DNA from: Hydrogenophaga sp.
Lineage (GTDB): Bacteria > Pseudomonadota > Gammaproteobacteria > Burkholderiales > Burkholderiaceae_C
DNA length: 33,442 nucleotides
NCBI GenBank assembly: GCA_018993155.1
Contig: JAGKSX010000092.1
Coordinates: 1 to 33,442, forward strand
Reading direction: 5' to 3'
Positions within the stretch are counted from its first letter, which is position 1. Every line of letters starts with the position of its first letter. The notes under the pieces were generated by a model, which made no database searches, had not been told where the DNA came from, and saw only the letters and a list, made by a program, of their open reading frames with translations. Positions 23,764 to 33,332 of the stretch are shown one piece after another. The position numbers were made by a program, and so were the translations under genes.

Positions 23764-25086
23764 TCAGCCGATCGCGGGCAGCACCTCGCCACGGCTCTCG
23801 CCGAAGCCGATGCGCGCCGCGCCCGGCTTCTCGCACCAGCCGCGCAGGATCACCGTGTCGCCGTCTTCCAGGAAGCGGCGCTGCGCGCCGATGCCCGGCA
23901 GCGGCACGTCCTTCGTGCCGCCCACGCTGAGTTCCACGATGGCGCCGGCTTCTGCGTGCGTGGGGCCCGAGATGGTGCCCGTGCCCAGCAGGTCGCCCGG
24001 CTGCAGGTTGCAGCCGCCCACGCTGTGCTGCGCGACCATCTGCGCGATGGTCCAGTACTGGTGGCGAAAGCTGGTGGCCGAGAGGCGGTCGGGCGCGATG
24101 CCGCGCTCGCGGTGCTCGCGCGACTCCAGCCGCACTTCGAGCTGCACATCCACGCCGCCGCGCTCGCTGTTGGCCGTGCTGTCCAGGTAGGCCAGTGGCT
24201 GCGGCTCGTCGGCAGGGTGCGCGAAGGGCACGCGGTAGGGCGCGAGCGCTTCCAGCGTCACGATCCAGGGCGAGACCGTGGTGCAGAAATTCTTGCCCAG
24301 GAAGGGGCCGAGCGGCGCCATTTCCCAGAACTGGTGGTCGCGCGCCGACCAGTCGTTGAGCAGGCACATGCCGAAGATGTGCTGCTCGGCCTCGGCCAGC
24401 GGAATCGGCTGGCCCATGGCGTTGCCCGGGCCGATGTAGAAGCCCATCTCCAGCTCGTAGTCCAGGCGCTTGCAGGCGCCATAGACCGGCGCGGCGGCAC
24501 CCGGTGCCATGGCCTGGCCCATGGGGCGGCGAAACGCCGTGCCGCTGACCACCACGCTGGAGGCGCGGCCGTGGTACGCGATCGGCAGCCACTGGAAGTT
24601 GGGCGTGAGTGGGTCGTCCGGGCGCATCACGCGGCCCACGTTGCGCGCGTGGTGGATGGATGTGTAGAAGTCGGTGTAGTCGCCGATGCGCGTGGGCACG
24701 CGCATCTCCACCTCGGCCTGCGGCACCAGGCTGGCGCGCAGCGCGTTCACGCCGGGGCCGTTGGCGCCGGTCTTGAGCAGGTCGAACAGCGCGTGGCGCA
24801 GCGCGCGCCAGGCGCCCGGGCCCAGGGCCAGGAAGTCGTTGAGCGCGTCGCCGGTGCAGGCGTTGACAGCCTGTGCGGCCGGGCCGGACACCGCGTTGTC
24901 GCGCGCGATGGCCGCCAGGTCGATCACCTGGTCGCCGATGGCCACGCCGCCCCGGAAGGCTTCGCCCGAACCCTTGCGGCGGAAAACGCCGAAGGGCAGG
25001 TTCTGGATCGGGAAATCGGTGCCCGGGGCGTTGGCCGATTCGAGCCAGCTGCGGGTGTTCGCGTCGTGGGTGTGGTTGAGTTCCAT
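23764..25086 (-). CDS. fahA: Fumarylacetoacetase
   Basis: 440-aa fumarylacetoacetate hydrolase, cleaving fumarylacetoacetate to fumarate and acetoacetate, the last step of homogentisate (Phe/Tyr) breakdown. An SH3-like N-terminal domain precedes the FAH catalytic domain. Metal ligands match the mouse enzyme: Asp139 (DYTDF), Glu211 and Glu213 (YELEMGFYIG) and Asp245 (LLNDWSARD), with catalytic His146 (SIHHARNVG). It is the full-length type, not the short acylpyruvase type. It is the last gene of the TetR-controlled minus-strand unit; AacS, encoded at the other end, would take its acetoacetate. hmgA, its usual partner, is absent. A 102-base gap holding a repeat separates it from the cyclase gene. 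The start at 25086 has AGGAA upstream. Confidence 0.94.
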   Translation of the reverse strand: MELNHTHDANTRSWLESANAPGTDFPIQNLPFGVFRRKGSGEAFRGGVAIGDQVIDLAAIARDNAVSGPAAQAVNACTGDALNDFLALGPGAWRALRHALFDLLKTGANGPGVNALRASLVPQAEVEMRVPTRIGDYTDFYTSIHHARNVGRVMRPDDPLTPNFQWLPIAYHGRASSVVVSGTAFRRPMGQAMAPGAAAPVYGACKRLDYELEMGFYIGPGNAMGQPIPLAEAEQHIFGMCLLNDWSARDHQFWEMAPLGPFLGKNFCTTVSPWIVTLEALAPYRVPFAHPADEPQPLAYLDSTANSERGGVDVQLEVRLESREHRERGIAPDRLSATSFRHQYWTIAQMVAQHSVGGCNLQPGDLLGTGTISGPTHAEAGAIVELSVGGTKDVPLPGIGAQRRFLEDGDTVILRGWCEKPGAARIGFGESRGEVLPAIG

Positions 25087-25109
25087 GAGGGTTCCTGTGC
25101 TGAAGAAAG

Positions 25110-25188
25110 ACGATCCGGCGCCGGGCCGCCCCAAGCCGGATCAGCCTCCTCGGGGGGCAGCGACCCGCGCAGCGGCGGAGCGTGGGGG
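25110..25188. repeat. GC-rich intergenic element between cyclase and fahA genes
   Basis: A stretch with GGCCGCCCCAAG, CCTCCTCGGGGGGCAGCGAC and GGAGCGTGGGGGC motifs. From memory this resembles a dispersed non-coding repeat common between genes in Comamonadaceae. It begins directly after the cyclase stop and can form hairpins, so it may punctuate the operon transcript. Copy number could not be checked. Confidence 0.5.
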
Positions 25189-25995
25189 CTATGCGGTGGC
25201 CTGAAGTGCGTCGTCGAAGATGGCGACCGCGCGCGTCCAGCCAGCGGACGCGCCACGGATCTTGTGCGGGAAGCAGGAGATGAAGAAGCCGGTGGGCGGC
25301 AGGGCCTCCAGGTTGTGCATCTTCTCGATGTGGCAGTAACCGATGTCGCGCCCCGCCTTGTGGCCTTCCCAGATCAGCGAGGCGTCTTTCGTCTCGCCGT
25401 ACTTCTGCGCGGTGTGCACGAAGGGGGCGTCCCAGCTCCAGGCGTCGGTGCCGGTCAGGCGCACGCCGCGCTCCAGCAAATACATGGTGGCTTCGTAGCC
25501 CATGCCGCAGCCGGCCGAGACGAAGTCGTTGTGGCCGTAGCGCGAGCCGGCGCGTGTGTTGACCACCACGATCTCCAGCGGCTTAAGGGTGTGGTTGATG
25601 CGCTTCAACTCGGCTTCCACGTCGGCGGCCGTGACCACGTAACCGTCGGCGAAGTGGCGGAAGTCCAGCTTCACGCCGGGCTGGAAGCACCATTCCAGCG
25701 GCACGTCGTGGATGGCGATCGCGGGCTTCTTCTCGCCCAGCGCCTTGTCCATGGTGGAGTGGAAGTGGTAGGGCGCATCGAGGTGCGTGCCGTTGTGCGT
25801 GGAGAGCTGCACCAGCTCCACGGCCCAGCCTTCACCGTCGGGCAGGTCTTCCTTCTTCAGCCCGGGGAAGAAGGGCTCGATCTGCTCGAAGGTGTTGTCG
25901 TGCGTGAAGTACTGGATCTTGGGGGCGAACGCGGGCGGGTCGCTCACCACGTCGTTCTCCAGGTAGATGGACAGGTCGATGAATTTGCGGGGCAT
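25189..25995 (-). CDS. Cyclase-family metal-dependent hydrolase (isatin hydrolase/kynurenine formamidase-like)
   Basis: 268-aa member of the cyclase family (PF04199), metal-dependent hydrolases that include isatin hydrolase and KynB-type formamidases. The metal site motif is HNGTHLDAPYHF, with His67, His71, Asp73 and His77. A C-terminal GASAGWTRAVAIFDD resembles isatin-hydrolase-like members. No tryptophan-pathway gene is near, so a kynurenine role is doubtful; amide, lactam or lactone opening is more general. The start at 25995 has GGAGAA five bases upstream. It lies 29 bases after a permease gene within the TetR-controlled unit, so it probably acts on the imported compound. The exact substrate is unknown. 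Confidence 0.85.
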   Translation of the reverse strand: MPRKFIDLSIYLENDVVSDPPAFAPKIQYFTHDNTFEQIEPFFPGLKKEDLPDGEGWAVELVQLSTHNGTHLDAPYHFHSTMDKALGEKKPAIAIHDVPLEWCFQPGVKLDFRHFADGYVVTAADVEAELKRINHTLKPLEIVVVNTRAGSRYGHNDFVSAGCGMGYEATMYLLERGVRLTGTDAWSWDAPFVHTAQKYGETKDASLIWEGHKAGRDIGYCHIEKMHNLEALPPTGFFISCFPHKIRGASAGWTRAVAIFDDALQATA

Positions 25996-26024
25996 GGTGG
26001 TTCTCCAAGGGAGCGAGGTGGGAT

Positions 26025-26801
26025 TCAGGGGCGCTGCCAGCGCAGCAGCGAGCGTTCGGCCACGGCGAGCAGTACGTTGCTCGCAAAGCCCATGGCGCCC
26101 AGCAGCACGATGCCGGCGAACAGTTCGCTGGCCTGGAACGAGCGCGCGGCCAGCAGGATGGCCTGGCCCAGGCCGGGTTGCGAGGCGATCATCTCGCCCA
26201 CCACCGAGACGATGAGCGAGACCGTCATCGACAGCCGCATGCCGGCCAGGATGTCGGGCATCGCATTGGGCAGGCCGATCTTGAGCACGAAGGCCAGGTG
26301 GCTGAGTTCCAGCGAGCGCGAAACCTCGCGCAGCTGCTTGTGCACGTTGGCCAGGCCATGCAGCGTGGCCAGCAGCACCGGCCACATGGCGCCGAAGGCG
26401 ACCACGGCCAGCACCATGCCGCCCGACAGACCGAACAGCGCGATGGCCAGCGGCATCACGGCCGAGGCGGGCAGCGGGCGGATGAACTCCAGGGTCGGGC
26501 CGATCCATTCGCTGGCGCGCCGCGAGCTGCCGATCAGCGCGCCCAGGGCGATGCCCAGCGCGCTGGCCAGCACCCAGCCACTGAACATGCGGCTGAGCGT
26601 GGCCCAGGTGTAGGCCGCCAGGTCGCCGCCGGCCAGGCCCTGCACCAGGCTTTGCAGCGTGGCCTGCGGCGTGGGCAGGAAGGCGCGATTGACCCAGCCG
26701 CTGGTGCTGGCGGCCCACCACAGGGCGATGAAGGCCCCGAGCACGAGGGCCGAGCCCGAGGCACTGCCCAGGGCCGAGAGGGTGCGGGTGGTTTTGATCA
26801 T
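26025..26801 (-). CDS. ABC transporter permease 2 (NitT/TauT/SsuC type)
   Basis: 258-aa inner-membrane permease of the binding-protein-dependent type (BPD_transp_1), with about six hydrophobic segments. The ATPase-coupling loop region reads EVSRSLELSHLAFVLKIGLPNAMPDILAGMRLS. Its start overlaps the stop of the preceding permease gene (ATGA on the minus strand). It is clearly different in sequence from permease 1, so the importer probably uses a heterodimeric channel, unusual in this family, where one permease normally forms a homodimer. Substrate unknown. Confidence 0.9.
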   Translation of the reverse strand: MIKTTRTLSALGSASGSALVLGAFIALWWAASTSGWVNRAFLPTPQATLQSLVQGLAGGDLAAYTWATLSRMFSGWVLASALGIALGALIGSSRRASEWIGPTLEFIRPLPASAVMPLAIALFGLSGGMVLAVVAFGAMWPVLLATLHGLANVHKQLREVSRSLELSHLAFVLKIGLPNAMPDILAGMRLSMTVSLIVSVVGEMIASQPGLGQAILLAARSFQASELFAGIVLLGAMGFASNVLLAVAERSLLRWQRP

Positions 26802-27547
26802 GCGGCCTGCTCCCCCATGGCGCGCGCCACGCGGCGCTGCAGCGCGAGCGCGCCGACGTTGATGACGTAGCCTACGACACCGATCCAGGCCAGCCAGGCC
26901 AGCATCAGCGCCGGGTCCAGGCTTTGTTGCGCGATCATCATCGCGTAGCCCATGCCGTGCGGGTTGGCCGCGATCTCCACCGTGACGGCGACCACCAGGG
27001 CGATCGCCACACCCAGGCGCAGCGCCACGAACAGGCGCGGCACGATGGCCGGGCCGATGATCCAGGCGAAACGCTGTCGTGGCGTGAGCTCCAGTGCGCG
27101 CGCCACCTCCAGCAGGCGGGGCTCGACCTGTTGCACCGCGGCCTGCGTGAGCACCAGCATGGGCCACAGGCAGGCAAAGGCGACCACGCTGAGCTCCATG
27201 CGCAGGCCGAAACCGAACACCAGCATGGCCAGTGGGATCAGCGCCACCGACGGAATGGGGCGCGCGACTTCCACGCTCAGGAAACCGAGCTGCGCGGCGC
27301 GGCGCGACAGGCCCAGCAGCGTGCCCAGCAGCAGGCCGCCTAGCGCGCCGATCAGCAGGCCCAGCGCGGCCGTGCCCAGGGTGAAGGCCGTGGCCTCCAG
27401 CAGCGAGCCGTCGGTGATCGCGCCGCCGAAGGCGCGCAGCGCGGCGCTGGGCGGGGCGATGGCATCGCTGCCCCGGCCCGTGGTGCGGGCCCAGATTTCC
27501 AGCGCGCCCAGCAGCAGAGCCGGGAACGCAAGGGACTTCAGCTTCAT
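26798..27547 (-). CDS. ABC transporter permease 1 (NitT/TauT/SsuC type)
   Basis: 249-aa permease with the same fold. The coupling loop region reads EVARALELTPRQRFAWIIGPAIVPRLFVALRLG. The N-terminus is a membrane segment (LAFPALLLGALEIWARTTG). It begins three bases after the ATPase stop and overlaps permease 2 by four bases, so the set is tightly coupled. The ARPIPSVALIPLAMLVFGFG segment is typical of SsuC/TauC-like permeases. Together with the ATPase and binding protein it makes a complete importer. Confidence 0.9.
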   Translation of the reverse strand: MKLKSLAFPALLLGALEIWARTTGRGSDAIAPPSAALRAFGGAITDGSLLEATAFTLGTAALGLLIGALGGLLLGTLLGLSRRAAQLGFLSVEVARPIPSVALIPLAMLVFGFGLRMELSVVAFACLWPMLVLTQAAVQQVEPRLLEVARALELTPRQRFAWIIGPAIVPRLFVALRLGVAIALVVAVTVEIAANPHGMGYAMMIAQQSLDPALMLAWLAWIGVVGYVINVGALALQRRVARAMGEQAA

Positions 27548-27550
27548 CGT

Positions 27551-28318
27551 TCAGTGCCCGAGGTAGTGATAGAGCTCGCGGCGCAGGCGCAGGAACTCGG
27601 GGTGCTCCTTGGTGCTGAGCTGGTCGCGCGGCTGCGGCAGCGGCACGTCGATCAGCGCGGCCAGGCTGGGCAGCTCTGGGGTGGGGTTGCTGCGCAGCGC
27701 GATCACGCGGTCGCCCAGGTACAGCGCTTCCTCCAGGTCGTGGGTGACGAACATCACCGTCAGACCCTCTTCACGCACCAGGCGCGCCAGCTCGTCCTGC
27801 AGGGTCTCGCGCGTCATGGCGTCGAGCGCGCCGAAGGGCTCGTCCATCAGCATCACGTCGGGCTGCTGGGCCAGGCAGCGCGCGATCTGCACGCGCTGCT
27901 GCATGCCGCCCGAGAGCTGCGCCGGGAACTTGTGCCCGTGCGCGGCCAGGCCCACGGTTTTCAGCACGTGGTCGATGCGCGCGGGCCGTTCGGCCGCCGG
28001 CACGTTCGCCGCCTCCAGCGCCAGGCTCACGTTGGCCTGCACCGTGCGCCAGGGCAGCAGGGCGCGCCCGTAGTCCTGGAACACGAAGGCGACCTCGCGG
28101 CTCGGGCCGGTGATGGGCGCGCCCTGGCGGCGCACGCTGCCCTGGCTGGGCGTCACGAAGCCGGCGGCGGCACGCAGCAGCGTGGTCTTGCCGCAACCCG
28201 AGGGACCGATCACGCACACGAACTCGCCGCGCTTCACCGTCAGTTCGGTGGGTGAGAGGATTTGCCGGCCACCGAGTTCGATGGCGACGCGGTCGAAGTG
28301 CAGAACGGTATCGGTCAT
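27551..28318 (-). CDS. ABC transporter ATP-binding protein (NitT/TauT/SsuB type)
   Basis: 255-aa ATPase with all motifs intact: Walker A GPSGCGKTT (about residue 38), Q-loop FVFQDYGRALLPW, signature LSGGMQQRVQIARC, Walker B VMLMDEPFGALD and H-loop VTHD. It powers the importer. Two starts are possible: the ATG at 28318, which gives the family-type N-terminus (TDTVLHFDRVAIELGG) but has no Shine-Dalgarno, or a GTG at 28357 that overlaps the binding-protein stop (GTGA) and would add 13 residues. Coupling through the GTG is quite plausible; I keep the ATG on family length. Confidence 0.9.
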   Translation of the reverse strand: MTDTVLHFDRVAIELGGRQILSPTELTVKRGEFVCVIGPSGCGKTTLLRAAAGFVTPSQGSVRRQGAPITGPSREVAFVFQDYGRALLPWRTVQANVSLALEAANVPAAERPARIDHVLKTVGLAAHGHKFPAQLSGGMQQRVQIARCLAQQPDVMLMDEPFGALDAMTRETLQDELARLVREEGLTVMFVTHDLEEALYLGDRVIALRSNPTPELPSLAALIDVPLPQPRDQLSTKEHPEFLRLRRELYHYLGH

Positions 28319-28353
28319 GGTCGAAGCGGCGCTGGCGTGGGGCGTGGCGTGCC

Positions 28354-29295
28354 TCACTTGGCGATCAGGCGCGCCACGTCGGGCACCGTCTTGAGCATGC
28401 CCTGGTCCTTCATGAGGTCAACCCAGTAGCTGAGCTGCTTCTCGGTCACCACCGCCATGGGGGGCGAGATCTGCACCTTGGCGATCACCTCGGGCGGCAG
28501 CTTGATGTACTTGCCGATGGCCGCGCGCACGGCACCGTCGTTCTTCGGCTGGTTCATGAAGGCCGCGGCCTCCTGCACGGCCTCGCGGAAGCCGCGCGCG
28601 GCCGCCGGGTTCTTGGCCACCCAGTCGCGGCGCGCGACGTGGATGATGGTGGGCTGGTTCTCGGGCAGGAAGGTCGAGTAGTACGAGGCCACGTAACCCA
28701 CGCCGGAGTCGGTGATGCGGCTCATGAAGGGGTCGGCGCTCACCACGGCGTCCACCGAACCGCCGCGCAGCAGGTCGCCGTGCTGCGGGAACGAGGCTTC
28801 GACGAAGTTCACCTTGGTGTAGTCCACGCCCTGGCTCTTGAGCCAGGCGCGGAAGGTCACGTGCAGGAAGGCGCCCAGGCCGGGCACGCCGATCTTCTTG
28901 CCCACGCAGTCCTGGGCCTTGCGGATGCCGCTGCCGGCCTTGGCCACCAGGCCGAAACCGGTGATGGTCTTGGAGGTCACGCCGGCACCGGCGACCACCA
29001 CGTGGTCCAGGCCGCCGTCCACCGACTGCAGGTACACGCTGGGCGTGGGGCCGCCGATCTGCAGCGAGTCGGCCTGCACCGCCGCCGGGATGGTGGAGTT
29101 GATCGGGATGAACTTGAGTTCCACGTCGAGCAGGCGCTTCTTGAAGTAGCCGTTTTCCGCGGCGACGAACACCGAGGCGAAGTCGGTCACGGCGGTGTAG
29201 CCGAACACGATCTTGGTCGGGCTCTGCGCGAAAGCCGGCAGGCTCATGGCGGCGGGAACGGAGGCCAGGGCGGCCAGGGCGGTGCGACGTTTCAT
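28354..29295 (-). CDS. ABC transporter substrate-binding protein (NitT/TauT/SsuA type)
   Basis: 313-aa periplasmic binding protein. The signal peptide has two arginines (MKRRTALAALASVPAAMS, cleavage near AFAQS), so Sec or Tat export is possible. The mature part has the NMT1/SsuA-like fold: IVFGYTAVTDFASVFVAAENGYFKKRLLDVEL at the start, LQIGGPTPSVYLQSV and KKIGVPGLGAFLHVTF further on. Relatives bind sulfonates, nitrate, thiamine precursors or aromatic acids. Which ligand applies here cannot be read out, but the linked enzymes point to an organic acid or aromatic compound. The start has a strong AAAGGAGA five bases away and overlaps the tetR stop (ATGA). Confidence 0.9.
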   Translation of the reverse strand: MKRRTALAALASVPAAMSLPAFAQSPTKIVFGYTAVTDFASVFVAAENGYFKKRLLDVELKFIPINSTIPAAVQADSLQIGGPTPSVYLQSVDGGLDHVVVAGAGVTSKTITGFGLVAKAGSGIRKAQDCVGKKIGVPGLGAFLHVTFRAWLKSQGVDYTKVNFVEASFPQHGDLLRGGSVDAVVSADPFMSRITDSGVGYVASYYSTFLPENQPTIIHVARRDWVAKNPAAARGFREAVQEAAAFMNQPKNDGAVRAAIGKYIKLPPEVIAKVQISPPMAVVTEKQLSYWVDLMKDQGMLKTVPDVARLIAK

Positions 29296-30002
29296 GTCTG
29301 TCTCCTTTTGGGTGGGGTGATCGAACTCTTCTTGGACGATTCGGGCAGGGCCGCGCGCAGGCCGCCCACGATGAAGCGCACCAGCCGTTCGGCGGCAGCG
29401 GGGTCGCTCGGTGTGTTGATGTGGGCTGACAGCCGCGCGATGCGGTCGTCCACCAGGTGATGCAGCAGCGAGCCCAGCGCGAACTGGTAGCCCCAGGCGG
29501 CTTCGGCGCGTGTGCCATGCGGCAGCACCTCGTGCAACGCGTCGATGAACCGGTTGGCCATCGGGTCGAAGAAGTCGTGCAGCACGCGGTCGGCTTCTTC
29601 GCTGTTGTAGGCCAGCTCGCGGCCCACGAGCTGCGCGTAGTACTGGCCTTCGGGGCTGGAGCGCATGCGGATCACCGGGAACACGAAAGCTTCGACGATG
29701 CGCGTGAGGGTGTTCGGATCGGCGGGGTCCTTGGACACCGCGTCCAGCGCGGCCAGTCGCTCCTCGATGGTGTGGCTCCAGTGCGCGAACACCGCGTGGA
29801 ACAGGTCCTGCTTGGGGCCGTAGTAATAGGCCACCAGCGCCAGCGGGACGCCGGCCTCTTCGGCGATCTGGCGGATCGTCACCGCGTGGTAGCCGCGCTG
29901 CGCGAACAGCTTCTCGGCCGCGAGCAGGATGGCCTGCTGGCGGTCGGGGCGGGGCGCGGCACTCTTCTGGCGACGGGCAGGCTCAGGCTTGCGGGACGGC
30001 AT
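29292..30002 (-). CDS. TetR-family transcriptional regulator
   Basis: 236-aa regulator with an N-terminal TetR DNA-binding domain: RQQAILLAAEKLFAQRGYHA followed by the helix-turn-helix VTIRQIAEEAGVPLALVAYYY (about residues 41-61). A larger ligand-binding C-terminal domain follows. A basic N-terminal tail (PSRKPEPARRQKSAAPRPDR) precedes it. A start at 30017 would add five residues; neither start has a clear Shine-Dalgarno. It lies inside the unit it probably controls, after the lactonase gene and coupled to the binding-protein gene. Inverted repeats at 30031-30046 and 31196-31211 are its likely operators, so it should repress itself, the importer and catabolic genes, and aacS. The inducer is unknown. 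Confidence 0.92.
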   Translation of the reverse strand: MPSRKPEPARRQKSAAPRPDRQQAILLAAEKLFAQRGYHAVTIRQIAEEAGVPLALVAYYYGPKQDLFHAVFAHWSHTIEERLAALDAVSKDPADPNTLTRIVEAFVFPVIRMRSSPEGQYYAQLVGRELAYNSEEADRVLHDFFDPMANRFIDALHEVLPHGTRAEAAWGYQFALGSLLHHLVDDRIARLSAHINTPSDPAAAERLVRFIVGGLRAALPESSKKSSITPPKRRQT

Positions 30003-30011
30003 GGTGGTATT

Positions 30012-30023
30012 GAACATGTGTTC
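30012..30023. promoter_or_regulatory. Short inverted repeat at the tetR start
   Basis: GAACA-TG-TGTTC, perfect five-base arms, overlapping the alternative tetR ATG. It lies eight bases from the larger operator and could be an extra binding site or chance. Confidence 0.3.
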
Positions 30024-30030
30024 AAAAATG

Positions 30031-30046
30031 TTGTACACCCGTACAA
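30031..30046. promoter_or_regulatory. Putative TetR operator 1, before tetR
   Basis: TTGTACACCCGTACAA: perfect six-base arms around a four-base centre, 28 bases before the tetR start. It is nearly identical to the site at 31196, and the next five bases (ACCCT) also match. The position allows autoregulation. Confidence 0.72.
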
Positions 30047-30085
30047 ACCCTGGGCCGGGTCGTGCGGAAGGCGGTCGCCGATGTG

Positions 30086-31126
30086 CTACCAGTGCACCAT
30101 GGGCAGGCCGGGCACGGGCGAGGTGAAGAAGGGGATGGTGGTGCCCATGAGGCTGCCGATGTAGACCGTGCGCAGGTCGGGCCCGCCGAAGGTGACGCTG
30201 GCCATCCAGGGCGCCAGCGTGCCGCGCGCGCGCAGCATGTCCTCGGCGGTGAGCGTGCCGTCGTTCATGTGGTCCAGCAGCACCTTCGAGGCCTCGGGGT
30301 TGCCGTCGTCGAGCAGCAGGCGCCGCTCGCCCTGCGGCGTGAGTGCGATCAGCTGGTCCGTCATCACCAGCGTGCACCAGAGGTTGCCGAAGGCGTCGAA
30401 CGCGATGCCGTCGGGGAAGCCACCCAGGTGGGAGGGTCCGAACACCTCGCGGTCGGTCAGGGCGACGCCCTGGGCCGACTCCACCACGCGCATGCGGCTG
30501 ATGTGCGGCCCGGTGGTCTCGACGATGTAGAGCCATTCCTCGGTTGCGTCGAAACGGATCTCGTTGGTGAAGTGCAAGCCGTCGGCCACCACGCGCAGGC
30601 CGCGTTCGTCCACCACCGCGATGTAGCCGTCGCGCACGCGGCTGCTGGCCGCTACGGTCCAGGGGTTCACGCGCGTGGAGACGGTGAGCCAGATGCGGTT
30701 CTTCGAGTCGCGCAGCACGAAGTTGACCTTGCCGATCGCCTCGCCGTCGATGGTGTCGTGCAGCGTGCGCGTCTGTCCGTCGCGCGCCATCACCTCCAGC
30801 CGGTCGGTGCCGAAGTTGGCAATCAGCACGTCGCCGTTGGCCGCGAATGCCAGGCCGTTGGGCAAGGTGCCCTGCGTGTACTTGGCCTCCACGTCGTGCA
30901 GCGAAGCCTGCGCGGCGCTGGCGAAGCGCTGGTCGGCGCGCTGGCCGATGAAGCGCTGCTGCCCATCGGCGCCGATGCGCGTGACGCCGCCGCGCGCGTC
31001 GGCCGCCCACAGCGTGCCGTCGCGCTCGGCCAGGATGCACTCGGGCCGCTGCAGGTCCTGGCCGATGGTGCGGATGGCGGCGCGGTCGACCTCGAAGCCG
31101 TCCAGCGGGTTGTTCGTTGAAGCCAT
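30086..31126 (-). CDS. SMP-30/gluconolactonase-family lactonase
   Basis: 346-aa six-bladed beta-propeller hydrolase of the SMP-30/gluconolactonase/LRE family. Members open sugar or other lactones using one Ca or Zn ion. Typical blade motifs are LQRPECILAERDGTLWAADA, GTLPNGLAFAANGDVLIANF, DGLHFTNEIRFDATEEWLYIVET and GGFPDGIAFDAFGNLWCTLV; the Glu in RPECI, the Asn in FTNEI and the Asp in FPDGI are the expected metal ligands. The start at 31126 follows GGGAC. It is the first gene of the minus-strand unit, just inside operator 2, and is divergent from aacS. The substrate lactone is unknown; no sugar-pathway gene is nearby. Confidence 0.9.
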   Translation of the reverse strand: MASTNNPLDGFEVDRAAIRTIGQDLQRPECILAERDGTLWAADARGGVTRIGADGQQRFIGQRADQRFASAAQASLHDVEAKYTQGTLPNGLAFAANGDVLIANFGTDRLEVMARDGQTRTLHDTIDGEAIGKVNFVLRDSKNRIWLTVSTRVNPWTVAASSRVRDGYIAVVDERGLRVVADGLHFTNEIRFDATEEWLYIVETTGPHISRMRVVESAQGVALTDREVFGPSHLGGFPDGIAFDAFGNLWCTLVMTDQLIALTPQGERRLLLDDGNPEASKVLLDHMNDGTLTAEDMLRARGTLAPWMASVTFGGPDLRTVYIGSLMGTTIPFFTSPVPGLPMVHW

Positions 31127-31195
31127 GGGATGTCCCGGTGGGGCGGGCCGCGGGCTGCGGCCGGCGAAGGGGCATTGAACGGGCGGCGCCGATTC

Positions 31196-31211
31196 TTGTA
31201 CAACCGTACAA
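31196..31211. promoter_or_regulatory. Putative TetR operator 2, lactonase-aacS divergent region
   Basis: TTGTACAACCGTACAA, one base different from operator 1 and followed by the same ACCCT. It lies 69 bases before the lactonase start and 42 bases before the aacS start, so one bound dimer could control both directions. Confidence 0.72.
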
Positions 31212-31222
31212 ACCCTAGTCGT

Positions 31223-31240
31223 ACCGGGCGCGGGCCCGGT
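31223..31240. promoter_or_regulatory. GC-rich hairpin before aacS
   Basis: ACCGGGC-GCGG-GCCCGGT, perfect seven-base arms with a four-base loop, ending 13 bases before the aacS ATG. A TAAGCT at 31242-31247 follows it. If that is the -10, the hairpin lies in promoter DNA; if transcription starts upstream, it would fold next to the start codon. Confidence 0.4.
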
Positions 31241-31253
31241 CTAAGCTCGGCGC

Positions 31254-33332
31254 ATGACCGCGCCCCACGTGCCCCAGATCCGCCTCTACCAGCAATGGCT
31301 CGCTGAGCACCGCGGCCTGCGTTTCGACGACTACGGCGCGCTCTGGCGCTGGTCCATCACCGACCTCGATGGCTTCTGGCAAAGCATCTGGGACTACTTC
31401 GAGCTGCAGTCGCCCACGCCGCACACGGCCGTGCTGGCGAGGAACGTGATGCCTGGCGCGCCCTGGTTTCCCGGCGCGCGCATGAACTACGCGCAGCAGG
31501 TGTTCCGCCACGTGCGGCCGGCGCACGAGGCGGGCTTTGCCGCCGTGGTGAGCCGCAACGAGAAGGGCCGGCACGCCGAATTGAGCTGGCCCGAGCTGCG
31601 GCGCCAGGTCGCCTCGCTCGCGCAGCACCTGCAGGCCCAGGGCGTCCAGCCGGGCGACCGCGTGGCGGCCTACCTGCCCAACATTCCAGAGGCCATGGTG
31701 GCTTTTCTCGCCACCGTGTCCATCGGCGGCGTGTGGAGCATCTGCGCGCCCGACATGGGCACCCACGCCGTGCTCGACCGCTTCCGCCAGATCGAGCCGG
31801 TGGTGCTGATCGCCTGCGACGGCGTGAGCTACGCCGGCCGCGACCACGACCGCCTGGCCGTGGTGGCCGAGCTGCGAGCGGCCTTGCCCACCGTGCGCCA
31901 CGTGGTGCTGCACACCAACCTGGCCGAGGGCGAAGCGGCGCAGGCCGACGCGCTGCGGGCCGCCGCGCCCTGCGCCAGCTTCGCGGCCGCGATCGCGCGC
32001 GACGACGCTGCCACCGCCGCGTTCGAGCCGGTGTGGCTGCCCTTCGACCACCCGCTGTGGATCGTCTACTCCAGCGGCACCACCGGCCTGCCCAAGCCCA
32101 TCGTGCACGGCCATGGCGGCACGGTGATCGTGGGCATGGCGCTCAAGATCCTGCACAACGACGTGGGCTGCAGCTACCACCCCAACAGCTGGGGCGAGCG
32201 CTTCCACTGGTACAGCTCCACCGGCTGGGTGATGTGGAACGCGCAGACCAGCGGCCTGCTCAATGGCACCACTTGCGTGATCTACGACGGCAACCCCGGC
32301 GGCAGCAAGGACAAGCCCGACTGGACCACGCTCTGGCGCTTCGCCGCCGAGCTGGGCGTGACCTTCTTCGGCGCGGGCGCGGCCTTCTTCGCCAACTGCA
32401 TCAAGGCCGGCGTCGACCTGGCCGCGTGTGGCAATCTGTCCGCCGTGCGCGCGCTAGGCACCACCGGTTCGCCGCTCTCGGAAGACGCACAGCGCTGGGG
32501 CACCGAGCAGTTCCGCCGCATCGCGAAGAGCGGCGCGCAGCAGGACATCTGGTGGTGCAACATTTCGGGCGGCACCGACTTCGCGGGCGCCTTCATTGGC
32601 GGCAACCGCGAGCTGCCGCAGACGCCCGGGCGCATGCAGTGCCGGCTGCTGGGCTGTGCGGTCGAAGCGTGGAACGAGCAGGGCCAGCCGGTGATCGACG
32701 AGGTGGGCGAGCTGGTGTGTGCGCAACCGATCCCGTCGATGCCGCTGTACTTCGTGGGCGACGTGGACCACCAGCGCCTGATCGGCAGTTATTTCGACAC
32801 CTACCCGCCGGGCCAGGGCCGCAAGCCCGGGGGTGGCGACCTCGGCCCCGAGGCCGGCGCGGTCTGGCGGCACGGCGACTGGCTGCGCATCGGTGCCGAC
32901 GGCTCCTGCGTGATCTACGGCCGCTCCGACGCCACCATCAACCGCCACGGCCTGCGCATGGGCACGAGCGAGCTCTACAGCGCGGTCGAGGCCCTGCCCG
33001 AGGTCATGGACTCCATGGTGGTGGATCTCGAGTACCTCGGGCGCGAGAGTTACATGCCGCTGTTCGTGGTGCTGCGCGAAGGCACCGTGCTCGACGATGC
33101 GCTCAAGGCGCGCATCAACGACAGCATCAAGACCGCGCTGTCGCCGCGCTTCGTGCCCAACGGCGTGTTTCAGGTGGCGGAGATTCCGCGCACGCTCTCC
33201 GGCAAGAAACAGGAACTGCCGATCAAGAAGCTGCTGCTCGGCCAGCCGCTGGAGAAGGTCATCAACCGCGAGGCCATGGCCAACCCGGGCTGCCTGGACT
33301 GGTATGTGACGTTCGCGGCGTCGCGGGCGTAA
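31254..33332 (+). CDS. aacS: Acetoacetyl-CoA synthetase (acetoacetate-CoA ligase)
   Basis: 692-aa ANL-superfamily enzyme that activates acetoacetate with ATP and CoA to acetoacetyl-CoA, feeding thiolase or polyhydroxybutyrate metabolism. The N-terminal ACAS_N segment (FWQSIWDYFEL) and the AacS-type MPGAPWFPGARMNYAQQ are clear. The ATP-binding loop YSSGTTGLPKP is near residue 275. The adenylation core has SGGTDFAGAF and the hinge GRSDATINRHGLRMG. The C-terminal domain carries the acyl-adenylating Lys in LSGKKQELPIKK (about 650). Length matches the family (about 650-700). No Shine-Dalgarno precedes the ATG. It is divergent from the lactonase gene and shares operator 2. It would use the acetoacetate made by the linked fumarylacetoacetase. 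Confidence 0.95.
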   Translation: MTAPHVPQIRLYQQWLAEHRGLRFDDYGALWRWSITDLDGFWQSIWDYFELQSPTPHTAVLARNVMPGAPWFPGARMNYAQQVFRHVRPAHEAGFAAVVSRNEKGRHAELSWPELRRQVASLAQHLQAQGVQPGDRVAAYLPNIPEAMVAFLATVSIGGVWSICAPDMGTHAVLDRFRQIEPVVLIACDGVSYAGRDHDRLAVVAELRAALPTVRHVVLHTNLAEGEAAQADALRAAAPCASFAAAIARDDAATAAFEPVWLPFDHPLWIVYSSGTTGLPKPIVHGHGGTVIVGMALKILHNDVGCSYHPNSWGERFHWYSSTGWVMWNAQTSGLLNGTTCVIYDGNPGGSKDKPDWTTLWRFAAELGVTFFGAGAAFFANCIKAGVDLAACGNLSAVRALGTTGSPLSEDAQRWGTEQFRRIAKSGAQQDIWWCNISGGTDFAGAFIGGNRELPQTPGRMQCRLLGCAVEAWNEQGQPVIDEVGELVCAQPIPSMPLYFVGDVDHQRLIGSYFDTYPPGQGRKPGGGDLGPEAGAVWRHGDWLRIGADGSCVIYGRSDATINRHGLRMGTSELYSAVEALPEVMDSMVVDLEYLGRESYMPLFVVLREGTVLDDALKARINDSIKTALSPRFVPNGVFQVAEIPRTLSGKKQELPIKKLLLGQPLEKVINREAMANPGCLDWYVTFAASRA

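Follow-up and report, generated by a model that had tools for sequence, protein, structure and literature searches.

A TetR-linked importer, cyclase-family hydrolase and full-length fumarylacetoacetase in Hydrogenophaga: a candidate route from an imported ring compound to acetoacetate

Introduction

What reaction might a full-length fumarylacetoacetase (FAH) catalyse when its gene lies in a cluster with a regulator, an importer and a putative ring-opening hydrolase? The question is raised by positions 23764-33332 of a stretch of Hydrogenophaga sp. DNA (33,442 nucleotides at full length, hereafter the window), which corresponds to contig C173 in a draft assembly of 4.9 Mb and 176 contigs (94% complete). 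The locus encodes FAH together with a cyclase-family hydrolase (CYC), whose nearest named relatives are from Hydrogenophaga, a four-gene ABC importer, a TetR-family regulator, an SMP-30-like protein and, divergently, an acetoacetyl-CoA synthetase (AacS). We rate as slightly better than an even proposition that these genes constitute an inducible, oxygenase-free catabolic unit, in which an imported acidic ring compound, in effect a masked 3,5-dioxo acid, is cleaved to acetoacetate. Genomes, loci and contigs of the window's own genome are cited below by G, L and C numbers, respectively.

Gene content of the locus

A preliminary description of the window had listed nine genes, eight of them minus-strand and the ninth, AacS, transcribed divergently, and Pfam and TIGRFAM scores bear out both their order and their placement:

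23764..25086, minus strand: FAH, full-length fumarylacetoacetase-family C-C hydrolase with Met at the conserved Tyr of the WEY motif (TIGR01266, PF01557 and PF09298, residue comparison)
25189..25995, minus strand: CYC, cyclase-family hydrolase with a metal-type motif, proposed ring opener (PF04199 at 118.5 bits, HxGTHxDAPxH, isatin-hydrolase-like fold)
26025..26801, minus strand: ABC importer permease 2 (PF00528)
26798..27547, minus strand: ABC importer permease 1 (PF00528)
27551..28318, minus strand: ABC importer ATPase, NtrCD/TauB type (PF00005; TIGR01184 at 237 bits, under the cut-off)
28354..29295, minus strand: periplasmic binding protein, NMT1/SsuA type (PF09084, PF13379; TIGR01728 at 87 bits, under the cut-off)
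29292..30002, minus strand: TetR-family regulator (TetR_C_30), probable start ATG at 30002 as judged from the sequence (PF00440, PF17939)
30010..30052, no strand: predicted operator block 5' of TetR, TTGAAC..GTTCAA plus TTGTAC..CGTACAAACCCT (motif search; exact matches confined to the cluster in 10 cluster genomes)
30086..31126, minus strand: SMP-30/gluconolactonase-like propeller, optional unit member (PF08450 at 66.6 bits; patchy in relatives)
31196..31214, no strand: second predicted operator copy, in the SMP-30/AacS gap (same layout in G003; one mismatch in G011)
31254..33332, plus strand: AacS, acetoacetyl-CoA synthetase (TIGR01217 at 654.8 bits, cut-off 520.9)

A Pfam scan of the nine genes found no oxygenase, no dehydrogenase and no ligase other than AacS. 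The nearest solved relatives of the binding protein, among them binders of bicarbonate, nitrate and a thiamine precursor, point to no single ligand.

The fumarylacetoacetase and homogentisate breakdown

By family criteria the window FAH is a complete enzyme: it scores 522 bits against TIGR01266 (cut-off 375.3), contains both FAA domains (PF09298, PF01557) and, in alignment, retains the active-site stretches of mouse FAH (1hyo), namely the TDFY, ELEM, NDWSARD, LGK and ELS segments, which include the residues regarded as catalytic. The preliminary description had remarked on the absence of the usual partners, hmgA and maleylacetoacetate isomerase. The first absence extends to the whole genome, in which no hmgA match was found at 94% completeness; the second is true of the nine genes, but a maiA-type isomerase above cut-off (261 bits against 171) is encoded elsewhere, at C139:8417-9046. 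Other carriers of the unit, G001 (3 contigs), G023 and G024 (1 contig each), likewise gave no hmgA match. Across a genus sample of 60 Hydrogenophaga genomes, hmgA exceeds its cut-off in 5 and a full-length FAH is present in 34.

Where hmgA does occur it usually has its own fahA. Of the 9 hmgA genomes compared, 8 have a full-length fahA no more than about 1.1 kb away from hmgA (G005, G064, G080 and G083 in the genus; G091, G092, G093 and G095, which are the genomes of L060, L061, L073 and L095), the ninth, G077, having just a FAH fragment match beside hmgA. Five of these genomes (G005, G091, G092, G093 and G095) carry the hmgA-side fahA in addition to the FAH of the unit. Because several unit carriers lack an hmgA match and hmgA elsewhere is accompanied by its own fahA, the window FAH does not appear to be a housekeeping copy. 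The preliminary description had itself named a sole housekeeping fahA as the circumstance that would overturn its reading; the hmgA surveys and the fahA positions lead us to reject it, and the search for a second fahA that it called for did return one, split over contigs C120 and C17. Its suggestion that FAH acts on something other than fumarylacetoacetate is thus probably right, to judge from these sequence comparisons, and hmgA is not the source of the substrate here.

The window FAH also differs in one residue. It has Met (Met256) in place of the Tyr of the WEY motif, a position that presumably lines the FAH pocket, given its spacing along the stretch of the metal-binding Asp. After deduplication, 15 of 16 FAHs without a CYC link have Tyr, against 1 of 40 CYC-linked ones, and Tyr is seen in hmgA-linked and VOC-linked FAHs as well as in 5 aligned solved FAHs.

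CYC and the replacement of FAH by BKACE

CYC belongs to PF04199 (118.5 bits against a gathering cut-off of 23.1), and the HxGTHxDAPxH motif is invariant among 29 aligned sequences, the window's included. It falls far short of the arylformamidase KynB model (TIGR03035; 30 bits against a cut-off of 223). Its closest matches among solved structures are isatin hydrolases, followed by further PF04199 proteins and by kynurenine formamidases; identity to the isatin hydrolases is about 20% in the fold match, with best E values of 4e-5 (phmmer) and 7e-7 (profile), so that the characterised isatin hydrolases are not close sequence kin. A structure model built with the 29 sequences has a mean pLDDT of 74, with low values across the metal-motif region, and bears out the fold alone.

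By the known reaction of its family, FAH would need to receive an acyl-acetoacetate from CYC. In L088, a Rhodoferax metagenome-assembled genome, the order TetR-TRAP-SMP30-CYC is followed instead by a gene for a beta-keto-acid cleavage enzyme (BKACE; PF05853, 364 bits), and the genome has no FAH match; in L077, a locus cut by its contig end, TRAP-CYC is followed by another BKACE. BKACE genes also adjoin CYC in L135, with a thiolase, and in L136, and one lies two genes from a CYC in L084. Since FAH and BKACE are unrelated, are both able to release acetoacetate and follow the same CYC, the shared requirement would be a beta-keto acid. The NCBIfam model named '3,5-dioxohexanoate:acetyl-CoA acetone transferase' (NF053538) exceeds its cut-off for the BKACEs of L088, L135 and L136, not for that of L077.

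Conservation of the CYC-FAH pair and exchange of importers

The TetR-importer-CYC-FAH arrangement recurs across several genera of the Burkholderiales, and CYC-FAH occurs once in Pseudomonas. Among 10 Hydrogenophaga loci with wide flanks, taken from 13 places at which CYC is at least 87% identical, all 10 have FAH, TetR and AacS; 6 have an ABC importer and 4 have genes of TRAP size (Pfam-tested in L041), and SMP-30 accompanies 3. A wider set comprised the best 80 of 578 CYC loci in the genome collection, FAH being scored at no less than 40% identity and 300 residues. FAH is near CYC in 27 of the 80, at a distance of one gene in 25 and of two genes in 2; within the fetched flanks none was found farther off. 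For CYC of at least 80% identity the figure is 25 of 39 loci.

The genes around the pair vary. The 27 CYC-FAH loci include TetR in 22, AacS in 14, an ABC importer in 17 and a TRAP importer in 5; the other 5 have nearby genes similar to Bug-type binding proteins or, in the case of Pseudomonas piscis, an MFS carrier. An FAH tree made by a quick method, with importers assigned from genes within six, requires at least 10 importer changes, and the sister FAHs of L052 and L182 lie beside a TRAP and an ABC importer, respectively. The swapping of importers around a constant CYC-FAH pair argues for a single class of imported substrate. SMP-30 is an optional member of the unit: 4 of the 27 loci have it no more than four genes from CYC (that of L057 is farther away and escapes this rule).

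AacS exceeds its cut-off in 48 of 60 Hydrogenophaga genomes, including 11 taken as lacking the unit, and some genomes, the window's among them, hold further copies. We therefore reject the idea that AacS serves the unit exclusively; in the genomes compared only its operator depends on the unit. The expectation that all nine families would be co-conserved accordingly survives for the TetR-importer-CYC-FAH core, and fails for the optional SMP-30, the exchangeable ABC importer and the genus-wide AacS.

A repeated operator-like site

The shared operator proposed earlier is real as a repeated site. The 19-bp sequence GGTTTGTACGNNTGTNCAA occurs twice in the window as exact copies, at 30031-30049 in the TetR/SMP-30 gap and at 31196-31214 in the SMP-30/AacS gap; in a shuffle control allowing up to three mismatches the mean was 0.04, and two copies were reached in 0 of 100 shuffles. 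The block 5' of TetR has the shape AGGGTTTGTACGNNTGTNCAA...TTGTACNNNCGTTCAATA. Its counterpart in relatives was sought in 37 TetR upstream regions, a set that includes close kin and duplicates (L037/L057, L051/L058 and L052/L066 each represent one place drawn from two sources): the 8-mer ACAAACCC is present in 34, and the block is missing from L059, L078 and L084. Over the 715,175 bases of compared loci CGTACAAACC occurs 34 times, 32 of them within TetR upstreams.

Genome-wide scans of 10 cluster-bearing genomes placed each of the 12 exact matches at the cluster, along with the sole match with one mismatch; at two mismatches there are 12 matches, 11 of them off-cluster, a number close to the 13 that the reversed control pattern yields. 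Twelve further genomes were scanned, of which G078, the sole cluster carrier, has an exact site at its cluster; the other 11, AacS-bearing genomes judged cluster-less (8 for want of a CYC match, 3 for want of an above-cut-off FAH), contain no site with zero or one mismatch. As AacS is genus-wide and the operator stands beside it only where the unit occurs, it is the operator and not the gene that is conditional in these genomes. The repeated site is a predicted operator for TetR, and the TetR-linked genes look like one regulatory unit, as had been suggested, with AacS bearing the same site.

The proposed pathway

These observations can be assembled into a five-step scheme. Until the compound or something made from it is present, TetR would keep both the unit and the adjacent AacS repressed; the NMT1-type ABC importer, or the TRAP, Bug and MFS carriers of relatives, would take the compound up; and CYC would open the ring to an acyl-acetoacetate, with SMP-30, where present, probably serving as an accessory lactonase for a lactone form. 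FAH, presumably re-tuned and acting as its family does, would then hydrolyse a C-C bond (R-CO-CH2-CO-CH2-COOH to R-COOH and acetoacetate), and AacS, again by family, would convert acetoacetate to acetoacetyl-CoA for central metabolism. The central element, in which hydrolysis opens the ring to give a beta-keto acid and FAH acts next, we regard as more probable than not.

The nature of the substrate is narrowed by what the unit lacks: with no oxygenase, no dehydrogenase and no ligase bar AacS, the imported compound should already hold the masked dioxo acid. The most likely class would be 4-hydroxy-2-pyrones or a related beta-keto lactone or cyclic 1,3-diketone; the 4-hydroxy-2-pyrone type as such is a tentative choice, to which we give somewhat less than an even chance. 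The acidity of 4-hydroxy-2-pyrones suits the importer types of the unit. Triacetic acid lactone (R = methyl) is the simplest candidate, an unlikely one when taken singly; styryl- or aryl-pyrones and the oxo-delta-lactones from flavonoid A-ring cleavage would fit too. If triacetic acid lactone were the substrate, the CYC step would be that of triacetate-lactonase (EC 3.1.1.38), to our knowledge a biochemical activity without a known sequence; our literature search found no paper on it, and hence no tie to PF04199. A narrower version, in which CYC cuts the keto form of an intact phloroglucinol-type ring (or triacetic acid lactone, the pyrone isomer) directly to 3,5-dioxohexanoate and FAH yields acetate and acetoacetate, has little probability.

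Observations that weigh against the proposal

Several findings count against this pathway. The unit is not limited to homogentisate-free genomes, since hmgA exceeds its cut-off in 9 of 14 further CYC-locus genomes (fahA positions were compared in four of the nine, G091, G092, G093 and G095). CYC lacks such an FAH in 53 of the 80 loci, some of them cut by contig ends; 19 of the 53 qualify as flavonoid-type clusters by containing 4 or more of 8 marker genes, and the remaining 34 belong to neither type. In L070 (6714-10810) and L086 (6723-10801) the order is AacS-SMP30-CYC with no adjoining FAH and no operator found; a full-length FAH was found nowhere in the genome of L070, and one is present elsewhere in that of L086.

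The Tyr-to-Met exchange is explained by 2 changes on the FAH tree, and comparison of the 3 or 4 independent pairs gives no significance, so that the trait is mostly a mark of lineage and not repeated proof. The second FAH of the window's genome, a full-length-type enzyme split over the ends of C120 and C17, is encoded two genes from a CYC paralogue and keeps Tyr, the sole exception among CYC-linked FAHs. CYC might equally cut a C-N bond, as its structural neighbours do. Finally, when NF053538 was searched in 369 genomes of the window's class, 11 genomes (10 over cut-off) gave 12 loci at E 1e-120, and none of these loci, several of them contig-cut, has a window-type CYC nearby; 3 of the 12 resemble carnitine-type clusters, one of which, Pfam-tested, contains a 3-hydroxyacyl-CoA dehydrogenase and a Rieske oxygenase. 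Given carnitine-like members and a reverse test that turned up no window-type CYC, the name of the model is a hint and not proof of the substrate.

Alternative explanations and known systems

The alternative that survives best, although still unlikely, is that the unit belongs to a lower flavonoid or polyphenol pathway, importing and finishing 3-oxo-delta-lactones or aryl-pyrones, the leftovers of A-ring cleavage by the same or other bacteria, to an aryl acid and acetoacetate. CYC relatives of 73-77% identity occur in flavonoid-type clusters (19 of the 80 loci) alongside a flavin monooxygenase, a VOC protein, a Rieske protein, a cupin and a short FAH-family protein (Pfam-tested in L045), and the unit-type and flavonoid-type CYC occur together in G005, G024, G026 and G034, the flavonoid-type neighbours being Pfam-tested in G024. 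These clusters resemble the fde and ifc systems (PMC11069340, PMC10755750, PMC11303751), a likeness that for the fde genes of H. seropedicae is drawn from protein families and the papers' descriptions. Isoflavone breakdown is reported to yield a 2-hydroxy-4-pyranone (PMC11069340) and naringenin breakdown a 3-oxo-delta-lactone (PMC10755750). The flavonoid systems, however, start with a flavin hydroxylase and a VOC extradiol dioxygenase, and the clusters found here use a short FAH-family protein in place of a full-length FAH, and the window unit has none of these and no oxygenase at all. In the ifc system a cupin is reported to act on the pyranone, so CYC is not established as the ring opener there; for fde, one paper states that enzymes past the first two steps lack experimental verification, in a passage that names no cyclase (PMC10755750).

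Less probable again is a dihydrophloroglucinol-type route, in which CYC would act as a retro-Claisen cyclohydrolase on a cyclic 1,3-diketone, like the enzyme of Clostridium scatologenes, with FAH in the role of the triacetate acetoacetate-lyase. The C. scatologenes study describes an anaerobic phloroglucinol pathway, PGR-DPGC-TfD-TAL, in which dihydrophloroglucinol is opened by a Mn-dependent 'cyclase'-family enzyme (25% identical to isatin hydrolase according to that study), and at a later step a BKACE-family enzyme converts triacetate and acetyl-CoA to acetoacetate and acyl-CoA (PMC10470551). Ring opening by this enzyme family, cleavage of a 3,5-dioxo acid to acetoacetate and the BKACEs that take FAH's place in L088 and L077 are all points of likeness. 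The nine genes, however, include no reductase like PGR and no hydroxyacid dehydrogenase like TfD, and FAH is hydrolytic whereas the BKACE (TAL) depends on acetyl-CoA.

That CYC is instead an amidase of the isatin-hydrolase or kynurenine-formamidase kind, acting on a lactam whose keto acid product is cut by FAH, seems improbable: its nearest solved folds are of just this kind, but identity is low, the arylformamidase score is far below cut-off, none of the nine genes handles nitrogen, and FAH or BKACE downstream demands a beta-keto acid. The weakest alternative, that FAH is the ordinary fahA of tyrosine and homogentisate breakdown amid unrelated neighbours, has in its favour the equivalog score, the match to mouse FAH, the maiA-type isomerase and the nine hmgA-bearing CYC-locus genomes, yet is very improbable in view of the four unit carriers with no hmgA match, the five separate hmgA-side copies, the unit-specific operator and the consistent pairing of FAH with CYC.

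The oxygenase-free unit that we favour thus shares with the homogentisate pathway (hmgA-maiA-fahA) a full-length FAH with its active-site stretches and the release of acetoacetate from an acyl-acetoacetate, and differs from it in the missing hmgA match, in the presence of CYC, importer and TetR, and in the Tyr-to-Met exchange. Another system with an acetoacetate end product is riboflavin/lumichrome catabolism, in which LumW, reported as a 40-kDa Co(II)-dependent pyrone hydrolase, is followed by a cupin hydratase and an aldolase, with pyruvate as the other product (PMC12746152); pyrone hydrolysis and acetoacetate are common to both schemes, LumW and CYC being compared by description, and the hydratase and aldolase steps and the pyruvate set them apart.

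Related clusters

Other groups built from the same families were encountered in the window's own genome. Contigs C120 (L009 3710-6751) and C17 (L010 6932-7834), over which the second FAH is split, hold a group of TetR-like, cyclase, TctC-type binding protein and FAH genes whose CYC paralogue has 57% identity. On contig C97 (L048 5261-15804) a CYC paralogue (70%) and a TctC/Bug binding protein are encoded close to a LigB dioxygenase, a short FAH-like protein, a FAD monooxygenase and a gamma-glutamyltranspeptidase-like gene; this is possibly another ring-cleavage cluster that uses CYC. On contig C35 (L257 9736-13710), one of the 12 loci from the NF053538 search, a BKACE (545 bits) lies between a TctC/Bug-like gene and a longer PF04199 cyclase of 332 aa, adjoining a LysR-type regulator; the genome thus encodes a second pairing of cyclase and BKACE families beside the window's own CYC.

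A second group of Hydrogenophaga FAHs has a single-domain VOC/glyoxalase protein directly 5' of fahA, as in L172 (4088-7900) and also in L173-L175, L177, L178 and L183-L185; the VOC protein was Pfam-tested in L172, L174, L183 and L185 and assigned by gene size in the others. A 563-aa FAD monooxygenase (Pfam-tested) is present in L172 and L174, and a gene of 519-570 aa in four others. Most of these genomes have no hmgA match, and G080 has hmgA elsewhere. Possibly the VOC protein is a ring-cleaving dioxygenase, or an isomerase, that has escaped recognition.

Significance

The protein families discussed here are each known singly; what is new is their combination and the use of a full-length FAH outside homogentisate breakdown. 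Our search of the open-licence literature, in part among the best-ranked 15 or 20 papers, found no description of a TetR-importer-CYC-FAH-AacS set; the preliminary description likewise knew of no named pathway with such genes. In the narrower and improbable version that ends in acetate and acetoacetate, two hydrolases would suffice to degrade a ring, with no oxygen, reductant or CoA needed before the last step, and sequences would be assigned to ring-opening and triacetate-hydrolysing activities of a kind for which we know of none. The proposal also gives the cyclase-family enzyme, which turns up repeatedly in flavonoid-type clusters, a function that can be tested. If it is correct, a full-length fumarylacetoacetase, usually annotated as the last enzyme of the tyrosine pathway, would have been recruited to a different, inducible pathway, and since Hydrogenophaga genomes with FAH so outnumber those with hmgA, many tyrosine-pathway annotations of FAH may mislead.

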